Source: a virus. From it: 39,849 nucleotides of DNA. The stretch is taken from positions 1-39,849 of IMG/VR virus record IMGVR_UViG_3300044962_000013; one strand, written 5' to 3'. The position numbers and the translations under genes are program-made. Below, piece after piece: positions 5,898-39,849 of this stretch; position 1 is the first letter of the stretch, and each line of letters opens with the position of its first letter. The notes below the pieces were generated by a model, which ran no database searches, was not told the DNA's origin, and was given only the letters and a program-made list of their open reading frames with translations.

Positions 5898-7124
5898 ATG
5901 CCCCAGACCACAGCACAGTGGCGCGCGGAAGCGAGCGCCGAGGAGCTGGCCACCCGAGCCGCAGAGATGCGCTCCGAGTGGGCCACCACGTCCGAGAGCC
6001 TGCGCAACGGCGACTCTGCCGCGTTCGAGACCGCCCGCTCGGCATTCCTCGCCGAGGTCGAGGAGATCGACATCAACATGTCGCTCCGCGGCATCGAGGC
6101 CATGCCGGTCGCGTTGCGCGGCCAGACCCGCGGCGGCGACAACGGCACCATCGGCTCCGGCGACGCGCGCGAGCTGCGTTCGCCCGGCCAGATCGTCATC
6201 GAAGACGAGGCGTTCAAGGCGTGGGCCGCCGGTGGCGCCCGTGGCGAGTCGCCGGGTGTCGAGCTGCGCGCCCTCGTAGCCGAGAACGACTCGAACGGCT
6301 CCTCGGGCCTGCTCCCTGTCGGCCAGCCGTTCCTGGTCAACCAGCAGCGCCGGCGCCTGTTCATCCGCGACCTGATCGGCGTGCAGCAGACCGGCCTCTC
6401 GGCCATCCCGTACGTCCGGGAGCTCAACGCCGTGGCCAACCAGATGGGCGCGAACGTCGTCTCCGAGGGTGGCACCAAGCCTGAGGCCACGATCCAGCTG
6501 ACCCCGGACCTGGCGCCCGTGCAGGTTGTCGCCGTCACGCTGCCCGTCACCACGCAGATCGTGGAAGACGGTCTCACGCTGATGGGCTACATCAACGGCC
6601 GCCTGACCTACATGCTCAAGATCCGCGAGGAAGACCAGATCCTCCGCGGCTCTGGCACCAGCCCGAACCTCAAGGGCATCCTCTCGTACGCGGGAATCCA
6701 GACGCAGACGGGCACCACCACGGACCCAGTCATCGCGATCGGGAACAGCATCTCCCTGATCGAACTGGTGGACGGCTACGCCGACGGCGTGGCCATGAAC
6801 CCGGCCGACTACTGGGCCATGGTCACCAAGCGCAACAGCGCGGGCAACTTCGATGTCGGTGTCAACGGCGAGTGGAGCGCGAGCCCCACGCAGTACATCT
6901 GGGGTCTGCCGGCCGTTCGGGCCAACAGCCTGAACAGCAAGCAGCTCCTGGTGGGCAACTTCGGCATGGGTGCGACGCTGTTCGACCGCTCGCAGTCCGG
7001 CGTCCGGGTGTTCGAGCAGCACGGCACCTTCGCGGCGGAGAACAAGGTTCTGCTCCGGGCGGAGGAGCGCGTGGCGCTCGCCGTCAACCGGCCCGACTTC
7101 TTCGTCAAGACCACCCTCACCTGA
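5898..7124 (+). CDS. Major capsid protein (HK97 fold)
   Basis: The 408-residue shell protein. The first about 100 residues are charged and helical (scaffold or delta-domain type). The Phage_capsid domain follows, with SGLLPVGQPFLVN, an E-loop and spine-helix region, and the P-domain segments VVAVTLPVTTQIVEDG and LRAEERVALAVNRPDFFV at the end. ATG 5898 follows TAGGAG. The upstream fused protease could remove the N-terminal region. It is followed directly by a small gene overlapping by ATGA and then by a methyltransferase, with a glycosyltransferase before it. Confidence 0.95.
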   Translation: MPQTTAQWRAEASAEELATRAAEMRSEWATTSESLRNGDSAAFETARSAFLAEVEEIDINMSLRGIEAMPVALRGQTRGGDNGTIGSGDARELRSPGQIVIEDEAFKAWAAGGARGESPGVELRALVAENDSNGSSGLLPVGQPFLVNQQRRRLFIRDLIGVQQTGLSAIPYVRELNAVANQMGANVVSEGGTKPEATIQLTPDLAPVQVVAVTLPVTTQIVEDGLTLMGYINGRLTYMLKIREEDQILRGSGTSPNLKGILSYAGIQTQTGTTTDPVIAIGNSISLIELVDGYADGVAMNPADYWAMVTKRNSAGNFDVGVNGEWSASPTQYIWGLPAVRANSLNSKQLLVGNFGMGATLFDRSQSGVRVFEQHGTFAAENKVLLRAEERVALAVNRPDFFVKTTLT

Positions 7125-30394: not shown

Positions 30395-31222
30395 TTACTG
30401 CTGTGCGCCACCGAGCATGTTCTGGAACTGCGCGGCGGCTTCGGGGGACAGGCCGGGAGCGGCCACGGGCGCGGGGGCCGACTGGATCGGCGCCGCCTGC
30501 GCGACGGGCTGAACCGGGGCCTGCGGCTGAGGGACAGGCGCCTGCGCCACCGGCGCCGCGGGGGCGGCCGGAGCGGTGGGCTGGGGCACTACCGCGCCCT
30601 GCGGACGGGCGTACTGGACGTCCAGGACGTTGCGCACGGCCGAGGAGCTCGGCACCTGCTCCCGGCGGACGAACTGCACGCGCAGCATGCCGCCGCCTTC
30701 CGGGAAGCCGCTGGCCACGCCCGCCGCCTGCACGGCCGCGGTGAGCACGTCGCGGTTCTTGCCCTTGACCTCCCATACCGCGTCGGAGCCATCGGCGTTG
30801 ACCAGCGGGATGGTGAGCGCCTTCTCCTGGGAGATGGAGCCGTCCTGGCGGCGGATCGGCTGACCCTTGAACGTCACCTGGGCGACGTCGGTGTCCCGGA
30901 GGTCACGCGCCACCATGCCGATGTTGACGTGCCCCTCCTGCGGGAACTTCCAGTACGCGGTCCCGGCCGAGCGCTGCGCCAGGTAGCCGTCCAGCGTGCC
31001 GCCCGCGGGGGTGAACTGGGGTTCGGCCGGAGGCGCGTACTGCGGCTGGGCGTACGCCTGCATCGGCGGGGCGTAGGCGGGTGCCGGGGGCGCGTACTGC
31101 TGGGGCGGGAGCTGGCCCGGGGGGAACTGCGGCGCGTACGCGGGGTTCGGGTACTGGGCCGGAGGCTGGGGGGCAGGCGCGGGGGCCTGGCCCCACCCGG
31201 CCGGGAACTGGGGTGCGGTCAT
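30395..31222 (-). CDS. Probable ssDNA-binding protein with disordered flanks
   Basis: A 275-residue protein. A central domain of about 130 residues (HVNIGMVARDLRDTDVAQV, QEKALTIPLVNADGS, NVLDVQYARPQGA) has the strand pattern of OB-like domains found in actinophage proteins near replication genes. The N-terminal 75 residues are Pro/Gln/Ala/Tyr-rich and the C-terminal 75 are Pro/Ala/Val/Gln-rich, both disordered. It lies between a helicase and a Cas4-like nuclease. A single-strand binding role is inferred from context, not from a specific motif. Confidence 0.6.
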   Translation of the reverse strand: MTAPQFPAGWGQAPAPAPQPPAQYPNPAYAPQFPPGQLPPQQYAPPAPAYAPPMQAYAQPQYAPPAEPQFTPAGGTLDGYLAQRSAGTAYWKFPQEGHVNIGMVARDLRDTDVAQVTFKGQPIRRQDGSISQEKALTIPLVNADGSDAVWEVKGKNRDVLTAAVQAAGVASGFPEGGGMLRVQFVRREQVPSSSAVRNVLDVQYARPQGAVVPQPTAPAAPAAPVAQAPVPQPQAPVQPVAQAAPIQSAPAPVAAPGLSPEAAAQFQNMLGGAQQ

Positions 31223-33987: not shown

Positions 33988-36900
33988 GTGTACCCACAGA
34001 ACCCCAGCACGCTCGACTCCGAGACCGCGGAAGCCCTCCAGGTGGCCCGCGGTCTCATCGCGTCGGGGGTGCCCCTATTCCTCGCCCGGCCCGTGCAGCC
34101 CGACGATGACGCCCACTGGCACAAGGTCGGGTTCGTCCTCCCGAAGGGTTGGCAGGCCACGGAACCCGACCCCTCGGTAGTCGACAGGTGGCAGCCCGGA
34201 TACGCGCTCTGCGCTGTGATGGGGCACACCCTGGACTGCCTGGACGTCGACCCCCGCTCGGGCGGCACGCTCACGGCCGAGCTGATGGACGATGTCAACC
34301 CCTCGGTGCTCGGCGGTCAGACCACACCGTCCGGCGGATTCCACCTGTTCGTGCAGCCGCTCGGCGAGGGCTCCCGGGACGGCGTGCTGCCCGGCGTCGA
34401 CGTCAAGGGCGGCATGCCCGACGGCTCGGGCCGGGGCTTCGCGTTCATCGCTCCCACCGTCAAGATCAGCAAGGCCAGCGGCGAGCCGGCATCGTACCGC
34501 TGGCAACGGGTGCCGGACTTCACGCCGCGCCCGCGGTCCGAGGCGCTGGCGGCGCTCGTGCTCGAGGCCAAGGCAGCGTCCGCCGGAGGCAAGGCCAAAG
34601 CATCGTCCACAATGGACACGTCCGGCATGTCGCCCGAGCTGGCCGCCTACCTCACGCAGGGCGTGCCCGTGTCGCCCCGGCGCGCGGACCAGGCCATCGC
34701 CGCCAAGCTGGCCGAGGTGCGCGACCACGGCGCCGTCACGGGCGCGGGGTTCCGCACGACGCTGATGGCCGCCGCGATGACGCTCGGCGGCTACGTCGGC
34801 GCCGGGCACCTCGATGAGGCGTCGGCCGGCGAGGCGCTGGCGGCGGCTGTGGCGGACGTCTGGGGGCAGCCCGACTCGGACGACATGCTGTGGATCGAAC
34901 AGGGTCTCCGGGACGGCGCCGAGCGCCCGTTCAGCGTCGCCGAGCCCACGTTCGCGCCCCCGCCCCCGCCGGCCGTGCCGTACGACCCCCGCCGGCCGTT
35001 CGGCGCCGAGCCGTTCGTCTTCCACGGCGCCTCGGATGACCAGGACATCGCCGATGCCGCGCTCGCCCGCGCCGTCCGCGGCGCCCGGGTGCTGTGGGCG
35101 AAGGTGAGCACCGGCCAGCCGCCGTGGATCGTGCGCGAGACGGACCACTGGCACTACGTCGCCGAGGGGTCCAAGGGCATCCTCCAGTCCCTGCGCGACA
35201 CCATGCCGCTGGGCTCGGTGCCGCTGGGCAAGGACAAGTCCGAGTGGACTGAGGAGCAGTGGCAGCACCACGCCCGGGCCCGCGTGCTCAAGGCGCTGCC
35301 CACCATCGCCGGCCTGATGGACGCCCGCGTGCGCCGCCCCGGCCACTTCGTGGTCGTGCGCCCCGAGCAGGTGGACGCCAACCCCTCGGTGATCTGGGCG
35401 GCCGGGCGGTCCTTCGCGATCGACGGGCTGTTCCCGGACGTCGAGCCCGAGGGGACGCCGCACTTCCACTCCACGAAGTACGTGCCCGCGGGCGGCCCCA
35501 CGCCGGCGTGGGACGCGTTCGTGACGGCCATGTGGCCGGAGCCCGAGGTGGCCGAGTGGGCGCTGCGCGTGCTCGCGGTCGGGTTCACCGGCCACTCGGA
35601 CGCCGTCATGCCGGTGCTCTACGGCGACCCCGGCAAGGGCAAGAGCAAGTTCATGGGGCGGCTGCTGGACCTCCTCGGCGGCTACGGGTCCAAGGCCAGC
35701 ACCGCCCTGATCCAGCCGAACGTCGGGAACGCGGACGTCGCCAAGGCCGAGCTGCAAGGCGTGCGGCTGGCGTGGCTGGATGAAGGGCTCGGCACCGGCA
35801 AGGCGTCGGTGGAAGCGGTCAAGGACATCACCGGCGGCGGCGCGGTCTACGCGGCGGCCAAGTACCGGGCGCCCGTCCAGTTCAACCCCACGCACACGCT
35901 CGTGCTCACCACCAACAACGAGCCCGAGATCCATGACGAGGGGCTGGCGCGCCGGGCCCGGATCATCCCGTGCGACGGCGACGCCGAGCGGATCGGGCGC
36001 ACGTTCGACGTGCTTCTGCTGGCGTGGGTGGATGAGGCGCCGGCCGTGCTGGCGCGAATGCTCGGCTACGCCGCGGACTACCTCCGCGACTGGCGCACGG
36101 TCGCGCACAGCGCCGCGCCGACGGCCGTTCAGAAGGTCACCTCGGACCTCGCACAGGAACAGGACATCGTCGGACTGTGGCTGGCGGAGCGCACTCGGCC
36201 GGATGAGCAGGGCACCCGTGGTAGCTCTCTGTACGCAGATTTCCGGGAATTCTCCCGCCTGTTCCCGGCCTGGGAACGCCGTCCGATGGCCCTCAACACG
36301 TGGGCAAAGCGGTTAGGTGAGGGCGGTTACCCCGTCCACCGGCGCCCGCACAATGTGGCCTACCGCGCGCTGGCCCTCACATCCGGCGATTACTCACCGT
36401 TCTCTCCGTTAACGCAGGGTGCGGGTGAGGTGAGGCCAGTTAGGGGCGGGGGTGAGGTGCCGAGTGGGGGGCCCTCACACGCATCTACCAGCGATAATGG
36501 CCCCATTGTTAGTAGTGTTAGCCCCCAATATCCTTCCAGTAGAAAAGTAGAAGAAAAGGGGGGTAAAACAGTAATGGGGGTAAACAATGGGACCCCTGCC
36601 CTCACCTCCTACCCCTCGGACCCTGCGGTGAGGGCATCCGAGATCGCGTTCATGGGGCGGTGTCCCGTGTGCAACGGCGAACCGGGGGTGACTACACAGG
36701 GTAAGCACCGGAGTCACAAGGTCAACGGCGTCAAGTGCGAGGGCTCGGGCCGCGTGGTCCCCGGCTTCGTCACCCCGGCACAGGCCGCGCGGAAGGTCAA
36801 GGTGGCCGAGCTGGCCGGCGCGGTGCTCACGCTCCCCGCGGCCATGCGCCGGGGCGAGGAGCCCCGCTCGGTCACGCTGGAAGAGGCGCCGTTGATCCTG

Positions 36901-38634
36901 GACGCGTGCCTGGCCCGCAACGGCGGCGTGCTCGGGGTGGACATCGAGACGAACGCGCTGCCGCAGTGGGATCCGCGGTATGCCGTGACGTCGATCCAGC
37001 TCGGTGACTGGTCCGAGGCAGTCGACCTGGACGCCGACGATCCGGCGCAGCGGCGCATCGCCGAGGTGTACCTGCGCGAGGCCACCGAGCTGAACGCCCA
37101 GTCGTACACGGCCGACCTCGCGCCGCTCGTGCGGCTCGGCGTGATCGCCAAGGGCGAGTACTCGGCGATGTGCGCGAAGACCGTGGACACTGCCACGCGG
37201 GCGAAGCTGGCCGACCCGCACCTGACCGGCAACGGCGACGGGCTGAAGGAGCTGAGCGGCACCCTGCTCGGTGACCGCGCGGTGAGCCCGGCGGCCGAAG
37301 CGGCCAAGGACGAACTCGGCAAGGCGGCCGGATGGGTGTGGAAGCTCAAGCCCGAGACCCCCGAATCGAAGAACGGGTGGCTTCAGATCGACAAGCGGTG
37401 CGCGACGATGGTGCGGTACGCGATTTCGGACGTGCTCGACTGCACGGCGATCCGGCGCGTGCTGCCCGAGCCGGCACCGGCCGTGGATGAGCGTGAACGG
37501 CTCGCTCAGCGCGTCACGGCTGTGGTCCCCCTGCTCGGCATCAAACTGGACGGCGAGGCCGTGAGCGAGCAGCTGAGCACCCGGGAACCGCGTGCTGCGG
37601 AGAAGCTGGCCCGGATCAACGCGCTCGGGGTGGACAATCCGGACAGCCCGAAGCAGGTGACCGAGCGCCTGACCGCGCTGGGCGCGACCCTGCCGCGCAC
37701 CGAGAGCGGCAACGCCAGCGGTGCCGGCGACATCCTGGAGAAGCTGACCGCGGCGCCCGGAGAGCTGGGCGAGCTGGCTCAGACGATCCTGGACTACCGC
37801 GGGGACGCCACGGTGCTGAAGAACATGATCAGGCCATGGGCACGCAGCACGCAGGGCGGCGACAGCCGGACGTACCCGACGATCTACACGCTCGGCGCGG
37901 ACACCGGCCGCATGTCCTGCGTCCGGCCGAACCTTCAGCAGGTGGCGCGCGAGGGCGGCATGCGGGAGTGCCTGGCGGCCGATCCCGGATTCAAGATCAT
38001 CGCGGCCGACTTCAGCTCGGTGGAGGTGCGCGTGGCCGCCGCGCTCAGCCAGGACCCGACGCTCATGCAGTTCGTGCACGAGGGCCGGGACCTGCACGGC
38101 GAGATTGCCGCGCTCGTGTTCGGTGAGGGCTGGACCAAGGCCCAGCGCTACTCGGTCAAGCGGATCGTGTTCGGGCGCCTCTACGGCGGCGGGCTCGAGA
38201 CCCTGGCGCGGCAGGCCGGGCTGAGCGACGAGGTCACGCAGCGGTGCCTGGACGTGCTCGACCGCATGACGCCGGGGCTCAAGGCGTGGAGCGAGGGGCT
38301 GAAGGCCGCGATCAAGGGCGGCATGAACCAGTTCCCGACCTACGCCGGGCGCGTGATCCACCTGGACACGGCGCTGCCGCACAAGGGCCCGAACTTCGCG
38401 ATCCAGGGCACCGCGCGAGAGCTGTTGATCGACGCGCTGGTGCGGTGGGACGCGGGCCCGTACGCCGGCGGCGTGATCCTGCCGGTGCACGACGAGGTGG
38501 TGGCGATGGTGCCCGAGGCCGTGGCTGATGAGGCCGCCGCCTACCTCGGTGAGTGCATGACCACCAGCCTCTACGGTGTGGCCATCACGGCCGAGGTGGA
38601 CGCTCCGGTGGATCGCTGGGCGAGTGCCGCGTGA
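33988..38634 (+). CDS. Primase-helicase-exonuclease-DNA polymerase A fusion
   Basis: A 1548-residue replication protein. Residues 1-180 are a primase-polymerase domain with Asp86/Asp88 (LDVDPR), His119 and Asp138. Residues about 500-730 form a D5-like SF3-type helicase: Walker A GDPGKGKS (546-553), Walker B WLDEG (596-600), TTNNE (641-645). An AT-rich linker occupies about 810-875. A zinc motif begins at CPVC (892). The exonuclease (DEDDy) shows Asp985/Glu987, Asp1043 and Tyr1144/Asp1148. The family A polymerase has motif A Asp1341, motif B Arg1387/Lys1391/Phe1395/Tyr1399 and motif C HDE (1501-1503). It can prime, unwind, proofread and copy. GTG 33988 follows a weak AGAGAG site and GACCAG. 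Each domain call is firm; a constant single-chain form is less certain (see the linker). Confidence 0.9.
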   Translation: MYPQNPSTLDSETAEALQVARGLIASGVPLFLARPVQPDDDAHWHKVGFVLPKGWQATEPDPSVVDRWQPGYALCAVMGHTLDCLDVDPRSGGTLTAELMDDVNPSVLGGQTTPSGGFHLFVQPLGEGSRDGVLPGVDVKGGMPDGSGRGFAFIAPTVKISKASGEPASYRWQRVPDFTPRPRSEALAALVLEAKAASAGGKAKASSTMDTSGMSPELAAYLTQGVPVSPRRADQAIAAKLAEVRDHGAVTGAGFRTTLMAAAMTLGGYVGAGHLDEASAGEALAAAVADVWGQPDSDDMLWIEQGLRDGAERPFSVAEPTFAPPPPPAVPYDPRRPFGAEPFVFHGASDDQDIADAALARAVRGARVLWAKVSTGQPPWIVRETDHWHYVAEGSKGILQSLRDTMPLGSVPLGKDKSEWTEEQWQHHARARVLKALPTIAGLMDARVRRPGHFVVVRPEQVDANPSVIWAAGRSFAIDGLFPDVEPEGTPHFHSTKYVPAGGPTPAWDAFVTAMWPEPEVAEWALRVLAVGFTGHSDAVMPVLYGDPGKGKSKFMGRLLDLLGGYGSKASTALIQPNVGNADVAKAELQGVRLAWLDEGLGTGKASVEAVKDITGGGAVYAAAKYRAPVQFNPTHTLVLTTNNEPEIHDEGLARRARIIPCDGDAERIGRTFDVLLLAWVDEAPAVLARMLGYAADYLRDWRTVAHSAAPTAVQKVTSDLAQEQDIVGLWLAERTRPDEQGTRGSSLYADFREFSRLFPAWERRPMALNTWAKRLGEGGYPVHRRPHNVAYRALALTSGDYSPFSPLTQGAGEVRPVRGGGEVPSGGPSHASTSDNGPIVSSVSPQYPSSRKVEEKGGKTVMGVNNGTPALTSYPSDPAVRASEIAFMGRCPVCNGEPGVTTQGKHRSHKVNGVKCEGSGRVVPGFVTPAQAARKVKVAELAGAVLTLPAAMRRGEEPRSVTLEEAPLILDACLARNGGVLGVDIETNALPQWDPRYAVTSIQLGDWSEAVDLDADDPAQRRIAEVYLREATELNAQSYTADLAPLVRLGVIAKGEYSAMCAKTVDTATRAKLADPHLTGNGDGLKELSGTLLGDRAVSPAAEAAKDELGKAAGWVWKLKPETPESKNGWLQIDKRCATMVRYAISDVLDCTAIRRVLPEPAPAVDERERLAQRVTAVVPLLGIKLDGEAVSEQLSTREPRAAEKLARINALGVDNPDSPKQVTERLTALGATLPRTESGNASGAGDILEKLTAAPGELGELAQTILDYRGDATVLKNMIRPWARSTQGGDSRTYPTIYTLGADTGRMSCVRPNLQQVAREGGMRECLAADPGFKIIAADFSSVEVRVAAALSQDPTLMQFVHEGRDLHGEIAALVFGEGWTKAQRYSVKRIVFGRLYGGGLETLARQAGLSDEVTQRCLDVLDRMTPGLKAWSEGLKAAIKGGMNQFPTYAGRVIHLDTALPHKGPNFAIQGTARELLIDALVRWDAGPYAGGVILPVHDEVVAMVPEAVADEAAAYLGECMTTSLYGVAITAEVDAPVDRWASAA
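36427..36608 (+). other. AT-rich linker with G6 run and internal start
   Basis: GAGGTGAGG (36427-36435) and its complement CCTCACCTC (36600-36608) flank the segment joining helicase and polymerase. It is markedly AT-rich and low in the codon preferences of the rest. A_AAG_GGG (36555-36561) is a -1 slippery heptamer followed immediately by TAA (36564-36566). An in-frame ATG at 36574 follows the G run by 10 bases. With five Gs, the upstream frame would stop at TAATG, overlapping this ATG. Confidence 0.6.
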
Positions 38635-39285: not shown

Positions 39286-39849
39286 CGGCCACGCTCAGCC
39301 CGGCCGAGAAGCTGGCTCGGCTCAAGCGGGTCAAGGCGATCAAGCCCTACCAGTGGGATTGCCACGTCCCCGGCTGTGACGGCACGCCGCACGACGGCGA
39401 CATCCTCACCGCCATGCCGCACCCGCACGCCCGTGCCGGCCAGCTACCGCCCGAGGGTGACTGGTGGGCGTGGCTGCTGATGACCGGCCGCGGGTACGGC
39501 AAGACGCGCTCGGGCGGCGAGTACGTCAAGCGCCGCATGATGGCCGAGGACGGGCACCGCGTGGCCTGCATCGTGCCGACGTTCGCCGTCGGGCGCGACG
39601 TGTGCATGGAGGGCGAGAGCGGCCTCGTCGGGGGCGGCGCCGAGCCCGGCCTGTTCCCGCCCGGCACGGTCAAGAACTGGAACCGCTCCATTGGTGAGCT
39701 CACACTCCACAATGGATCAATGCTGAAGATCTTCGGTACCGACAAGCGCAAGGACGCCGAGCAGTTGCGTGGCTACCAGTGCCATACCGCGTGGTTCGAG
39801 GAGCTGGGCACGCAGGTGTACGGCGAGGTGGCGTGGGACATGCTCACGT
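39282..39849 (+). CDS. terL: Terminase large subunit, N-terminal part (continues at base 1)
   Basis: GTG 39282 overlaps the small terminase stop. The first 189 residues are visible here, of which 147 lie before the terminal repeat. The Walker A motif GRGYGKT is at residues 69-75. The frame continues without a break into base 1 (position 39723 corresponds to base 1). Near residues 27-33 there is a CHVPGC element, which may bind zinc. Confidence 0.93.
   Translation, partial: MTATLSPAEKLARLKRVKAIKPYQWDCHVPGCDGTPHDGDILTAMPHPHARAGQLPPEGDWWAWLLMTGRGYGKTRSGGEYVKRRMMAEDGHRVACIVPTFAVGRDVCMEGESGLVGGGAEPGLFPPGTVKNWNRSIGELTLHNGSMLKIFGTDKRKDAEQLRGYQCHTAWFEELGTQVYGEVAWDMLT
39723..39849 (+). repeat. Terminal repeat, second copy
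   Basis: Second copy of the 127-base repeat. Removing one copy closes the genome at 39,722 bp with the terminase frame intact. Confidence 0.95.

Follow-up and report, generated by a model that had tools for sequence, protein, structure and literature searches.

Can one phage gene carry the priming, unwinding, proofreading and copying activities of a replisome, and what is the DNA that joins its halves? The question is raised by IMG/VR virus record IMGVR_UViG_3300044962_000013, of which the whole stretch of 39,849 nucleotides (the window) was analysed. An earlier note, made from the letters alone, had described primase-polymerase, D5-like helicase, proofreading exonuclease and family A DNA polymerase (PolA) as joined in one open frame of 1548 codons. 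This open reading frame (ORF), 33988–38634, was recovered as described, with a GTG start, 1548 aa and no internal stop. We consider it probable, at roughly two chances in three, that its product acts as one long primase-helicase-exonuclease-polymerase chain and that the DNA of its interdomain linker most likely also serves as the phage replication origin.

Genome and fused gene

The window ends share an exact 127-bp terminal repeat (1–127 = 39723–39849), and the record is therefore a complete, circularly assembled genome of an actinobacterial phage, with 39,722 unique bases. The fused gene and its parts are as follows.

33988–38634, plus strand: fused replicase ORF, in the order archaeo-eukaryotic primase (AEP)/Prim-Pol, D5/SF3 helicase, linker, zinc motif, DEDDy exonuclease, family A polymerase
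33988–34977, plus strand: N-terminal primase of AEP/Prim-Pol type, residues 1–330 (motifs conserved in aligned relatives; PHROG primase match)
35440–36387, plus strand: D5/SF3-type helicase, residues 485–800 (Pfam DUF5906)
36388–36882, plus strand: Pro/Gly/Ser/Thr-rich interdomain linker that cannot be aligned from member to member and whose DNA is a putative replication origin (GC at third codon positions, GC3, 60% versus 89–91% in the flanks)
36661–36738, plus strand: zinc-finger-like motif (C892-x2-C895...H910...C917) that opens the polymerase half
36937–37431, plus strand: 3'-5' exonuclease motifs (Exo I 36937–36954, Exo II D 37114, Exo III 37417–37431)
37564–38598, plus strand: family A polymerase (motif A 38005–38031, motif B 38158–38190, motif C 38482–38499)

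The catalytic motifs that the earlier note had ascribed to the four parts were all located in the window protein. PHROG profiles for DNA primase and DNA polymerase match residues 52–787 and 975–1546, respectively. AEP motifs are predicted at D86xD88, S115GGxH119 and D138, and also in most aligned members; the third Asp motif was not seen in locus L018 in the alignment used. In a Pfam scan with matches counted at E ≤ 0.1, Prim-Pol did not match the N-domain of the window protein itself, and it matched three of seven aligned homologous N-domains (best 8e-12). The following part carries a Walker A motif (residues 546–553; 35623–35646), a Walker B motif (D598-E599; about 35767–35784) and SF3 motif C including N643 (about 35908–35925), by which it is predicted to be an SF3/D5 helicase. 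DUF5906 matches residues 544–656 (E 2.5e-9), and TIGR01613 (P4 primase C-terminus) matches the helicase part at E 1e-26, under the model's own cut-off. The primase-helicase half also matches C962R of African swine fever virus (ASFV) in sequence (E 1e-12), and a low-confidence AlphaFold model of it, used for this purpose only, was aligned by Foldseek over most of the chain with ASFV PrimPol C962R and poxvirus E5.

The residues expected of a DEDDy exonuclease (DxE, D and YxxxD) were found as D985/E987 in Exo I, D1043 in Exo II and Y1144-x3-D1148 in Exo III, all five being invariant across the 10 aligned members, in keeping with a proofreading function. PF00476 (DNA_pol_A) matches residues 1193–1537 at E 3e-46. 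Motif A (D1341), motif B (K1391...F1395...Y1399) and motif C (H1501-D1502-E1503) supply the catalytic Asp, Lys and Asp-Glu of a predicted family A polymerase and are invariant in 10 members; a Phe occupies the position of E. coli residue 762. The zinc-finger-like motif is invariant in five of five near relatives and absent in the other aligned members, and so marks the nearest subgroup only. It is reasonable, judged from these motifs, to regard the fused protein as potentially close to a one-protein replisome.

In loci L006, L007 and L008 the polymerase has an added CPTC...C...HD insertion between motifs A and B, possibly a second zinc site.

Fusion among relatives

Relatives were gathered by successive searches, which gave 69 viral loci and nine loci in Actinomycetota genomes, some of them the same element in both. 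The hosts of the prophage loci include Micromonospora, Jatrophihabitans, Haloactinopolyspora, Labedaea and Nocardioides. A profile search of genome contigs with a narrow alignment found none, and a wider alignment found the nine loci; scans of viral records with just the N-terminal part as query returned the contig of L003 as the only match. At a query coverage of at least 80%, no match occurred among 50,697 phage records or among 72,556 plasmid records. When the loci were scored with profile hidden Markov models (HMMs), 53 of 67 scorable loci proved fused and 14 split, and a further 7 were cut (51 fused loci after removal of near-duplicates). The domain order proposed in the earlier note is thus found in about 50 further elements, which are uncultured phages and prophages of Actinomycetota. 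The fused form is the rule in this uncultured lineage, and split versions also exist.

All eight cultured actinophages that were read (Kieran, Olliecat, Rowa, TG1 and others) have the split form, a primase/helicase gene followed by a Pol I gene in the same order. In Kieran and Olliecat the two genes overlap by 4–8 bases; in the remaining phages a gap or one to two small genes lie between them. The earlier note had allowed for relatives that would all be split at this point, together with a wrong count of Gs; this does not hold, as the nearer uncultured relatives are fused, but the eight cultured relatives do have two genes. A run of six G (36560–36565) in the junction might indeed suggest that a sequencing or assembly error had joined two genes. 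However, about 50 independent contigs, isolate genomes among them, are fused with differing linkers, and the IMG/VR relative L003 is a single ORF of 1567 aa, open across the junction, with a linker unrelated to that of the window. The G-run therefore poses no frame problem, and a frameshift or assembly error is as good as excluded.

Several loci depart from the common architecture. Separate polymerase genes in L070, L096 and L100 are placed among fused members in the polymerase tree, which may indicate re-splitting. In L014 (4453–7107) and L015 (4453–6825) a separate PolA has an N-terminal domain that resembles family 4 uracil-DNA glycosylase by eye. The fused ORF of L029 has a probable intein in the helicase (residues about 530–920; LAGLIDADG_3 and terminase PHROG matches, the latter likely via a shared intein), and probable inteins are also present in L089 and L088, where the polymerase HMM match is broken by about 250–340 aa.

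A repeat array in the linker

Linker composition was analysed in 40 fused members with a well-matched helicase. The linker peptide has a median length of 184 aa between the HMM domains and a high content of P, G, S and T, and the GC3 of the linker lies below that of both flanks in all 40 members (mean 61% versus 91%). Repeated 9-mers are in marked excess, with a mean of 34.8 per linker; shuffling of synonymous codons reduced the mean to 5.3, and control windows from the same locus had 8.2. A p ≤ 0.05 was reached in 38 of 40 linkers, and 31 of 40 exceeded every control window. Of 43 fused loci, 31 have their strongest repeat window, judged over the whole locus, in the linker. A typical array is phage-specific and consists of about 10 short repeats that are nearly absent elsewhere in the locus; the array sequence varies from phage to phage while its layout is kept. 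One motif family found in many members, ACCC[GT][CT]CA, has 237 sites in 25 kb of linker and 71 in 580 kb elsewhere, a 77-fold ratio that is only descriptive because the motif was derived from the linkers themselves. Spacings between repeats fall mainly at 8–12 bp (112) and 18–22 bp (59), versus 15 at 13–17 bp and 3 at 23–27 bp, which is consistent with helical phasing.

Repeated peptide units do occur in several linkers, and the DNA repeats might accordingly be a mere by-product of low-complexity peptide. This is very improbable, as the excess is lost in shuffles that preserve the peptide, many spacings (8, 10, 11, 19 and 20 bp) break the reading frame, and copies lie on both strands.

In the window the corresponding features are the following.

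36316–36635, no strand assigned: iteron-like array, consensus GGTGAGGGC, the top k-mer cluster genome-wide
36481–36597, no strand assigned: AT-richer stretch between repeats, candidate DNA unwinding element (GC 46%, minimum 30% over 30 bp)

Sites of GGTGAGGGC lie at 36316, 36424, 36429, 36451 and 36627 on the plus strand and at 36373, 36471 and 36598 on the minus strand. A whole-genome scan of all 6-, 7- and 8-mers placed the top cluster at 36301–36620 for every k, with p 1.6e-10 for GTGAGG and 2e-6 for the next best 6-mer cluster.

Clustered short repeats, helical spacing and an AT-rich stretch form the layout expected of an iteron origin; judged by sequence, this layout appears strong in most members and weaker in the window. 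Several observations weigh against an origin-bearing one-chain replicase. The window repeats are shorter and sparser than those of most members, and the window linker does not exceed its control windows in repeated 9-mers, so that its array is argued from the k-mer scan and from the family. GC skew has no clear inflection at 36.5 kb that would mark an origin, a clear repeat motif was not obtained in L003, L019 and L076, and no comparable array is present at the junction in the eight cultured relatives with split genes. As to the enzyme, AlphaFold models of the two halves, built from shallow alignments, reached a mean predicted local distance difference test (pLDDT) score of only 59 and 52, and most of the N-domain, where an AEP fold is expected, was below 50; the polymerase-half model was set aside.

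In-frame exchange of the primase-helicase half

The window and L003 are 91% identical in the polymerase half and 42% in the helicase, and L007 and L008 are 94% and 45% identical, respectively; the window and L007 are 62% identical in the polymerase half and 64% in the helicase. L053 and L055 have polymerases with 98% identity but N-halves with about 27% (local alignment). The helicase data reject the polymerase groupings in approximately unbiased (AU) tests, with p 7e-12 for the window with L003, 4e-64 for L007 with L008 and 3e-49 for the L021 group; these groups were picked after the identities had been seen, so that the p-values serve as description only, though they reflect a large effect. 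By these comparisons, relatives whose polymerases are almost the same have exchanged the helicase half in frame. In some members other parts precede the same polymerase. A fused ORF in L067 (4490–8821) has Prim-Pol and a RecA-like AAA_25 domain, which replaces the SF3/D5 helicase, before the same PolA, and one in L059 (4343–8797) has an N-half with DUF3854 and without a recognised SF3 helicase. Module exchange and the linker array are both findings beyond the earlier note.

The position of the exchange with L003 could be placed in the window.

36617, no strand assigned: approximate breakpoint of the exchange with L003 (91% DNA identity from 36617 to the window end)

The array site at 36627 sits just past this breakpoint. 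Elsewhere, DNA identity resumes at 932 in L008 (final repeat ending near 927), at 6839 in L053 and L055 (final repeats ending near 6817) and at 6956 in L044 (final repeat ending near 6884). In these four exchanges the break lies no more than about 75 bp past the array, a figure that reflects only four events with approximate BLAST ends. The pattern is one of joint inheritance of primase-helicase and repeats, with a polymerase that stays constant.

That the breakpoints adjoin the array could also mean that the repeats serve as operators, packaging signals or recombination sites, or that they form a recombination hotspot whose only effect is to favour module exchange, with no origin involved; linkers tolerate DNA change because their peptide is unconserved. 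We regard this as somewhat unlikely. Helical spacing, both orientations and an AT-rich gap match iteron origins (PMC5043065), the array lies inside the replicase gene with a layout that is constant while its sequence varies, and the breakpoints fall beyond the array and not inside it.

One chain or two proteins

The chain might instead be cut in the linker, or translation might also start internally and yield an extra polymerase; in either case two proteins would do the work, as for the apicoplast replicase PREX, which is reported to be proteolytically processed (PMC7689252). The linker, being long and rich in P, G, S and T, is probably flexible and exposed to proteases, and in the window an in-frame ATG near 36574 closely follows a G-rich stretch. 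This ATG is missing in L003, though, and under a strict test none of 40 members had a conserved in-frame ATG with a good Shine-Dalgarno sequence; a conserved internal start for a separate polymerase is therefore rejected. Independent exchanges all keep the frame across the linker, which suggests that the joined chain matters. On balance, a working enzyme made of two proteins seems improbable, and an uncut chain is favoured.

Other features of the genome

33517–33816, plus strand: small MerR/excisionase-like helix-turn-helix (HTH) protein directly upstream of the replicase ORF (PHROG matches E 5e-7)

This HTH protein could act as a regulator or bind the repeats. Genes for an SF2-type helicase and a Holliday-junction resolvase lie in other parts of the genome, which qualifies the one-protein replisome reading. 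Clustered GTACTG/AGTACGCG repeats occur at 30951–31158 in a minus-strand ORF, with a similar cluster at 2342–2483 in L003.

Proposed function

In the one-chain replicase with a linker origin, the N-terminal half, a D5/C962R-like primase-helicase, would unwind DNA and make primers; hexameric unwinding with primer synthesis would be expected from the C962R and E5 families. The C-terminal half, a proofreading PolA, would extend these primers, the flexible linker rich in P, G, S and T connecting the two. Replication would start with a cognate initiator, which could be the N-terminal half itself or the small HTH protein from the upstream gene. It would attach to the repeats, open the AT-rich stretch and place the helicase there, and the polymerase would come along on the same chain. 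For the family we lean, with some reserve, towards an actinophage replicase in which one gene provides four activities and its own linker origin, and in which the primase-helicase with its matching origin moves as an in-frame cassette before a constant polymerase.

The origin of phage lambda is located within the initiator gene O. It contains iterons bound by the initiator (PMC3985674) and undergoes strand opening (PMC5043065). Lambda has four 19-bp iterons and a separate initiator, whereas the window family has about 10 sites of about 9 bp within a primase-helicase-polymerase gene. An iteron-type origin inside a gene, comparable to lambda ori, would be the most economical reading of the linker.

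Comparison with known systems

The earlier note was right that the fusion is real, but a single-chain replicase is less unusual than it implied, because GP55 and the Pyrovirus 3173 polyprotein have already been published. GP55 of lactococcal phage 1706 is described as combining helicase, primase, polymerase and exonuclease in one chain, active in vitro, with more than 1000 homologues reported (PMC12205980). According to the part of that report consulted, its order is helicase-AEP-alphaHD-PolB with a phi29-like family B polymerase, as against AEP-helicase-PolA here, and no linker origin is mentioned (PMC12205980). A GP55-type replicase was rejected for the window, as the polymerase part belongs to family A and not family B. 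The Pyrovirus 3173 PolA polyprotein (1606 aa) has a helicase/primase-like N-terminus, a 3'-5' exonuclease and PolA, and like the window family it is phage-encoded and occurs both fused and split, depending on the species (PMC7689252). It differs in its N-terminal DUF927 and COG5519, as opposed to DUF5906 in the window, and in its thermophilic Aquificae hosts (PMC7689252). A polyprotein of this type was also rejected, DUF927 being absent from the window at E ≤ 0.1.

PREX, the Plasmodium apicoplast replicase, has a T7 gp4-like primase-helicase. Like the window protein it is a polyprotein with a C-terminal PolA, and its polymerase chains match our polymerase profile; it differs in being an organelle enzyme processed by proteolysis (PMC7689252). 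ASFV C962R, poxvirus D5/E5 and the P4-family primases of phages and plasmids resemble the N-half in combining AEP and an SF3 AAA+ helicase in one protein, but the D5/C962R-type enzymes have no fused DNA polymerase. The split actinophage modules share the domain order but are two genes. Single-chain replicases are thus already known, and the window family is a new, PolA-based variant, separate from GP55 and Pyrovirus 3173 because domain order, helicase type or polymerase family differs. Neither a PolA-based primase-helicase fusion of this kind nor a linker array with in-frame cassette exchange was found in the literature searched, the coverage of which is incomplete.

With about 50 members, the family places a PolA-based lineage of single-chain replicases beside the GP55 type with its PolB. 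The primases, and in some members also the helicase folds, vary before one and the same polymerase, and these natural chimaeras lend themselves to tests of helicase-polymerase coupling. Should the linker prove to be the origin, enzyme and start site would reside in a single gene, and this compact region could be tried as a minimal self-replicating unit in Actinomycetota.
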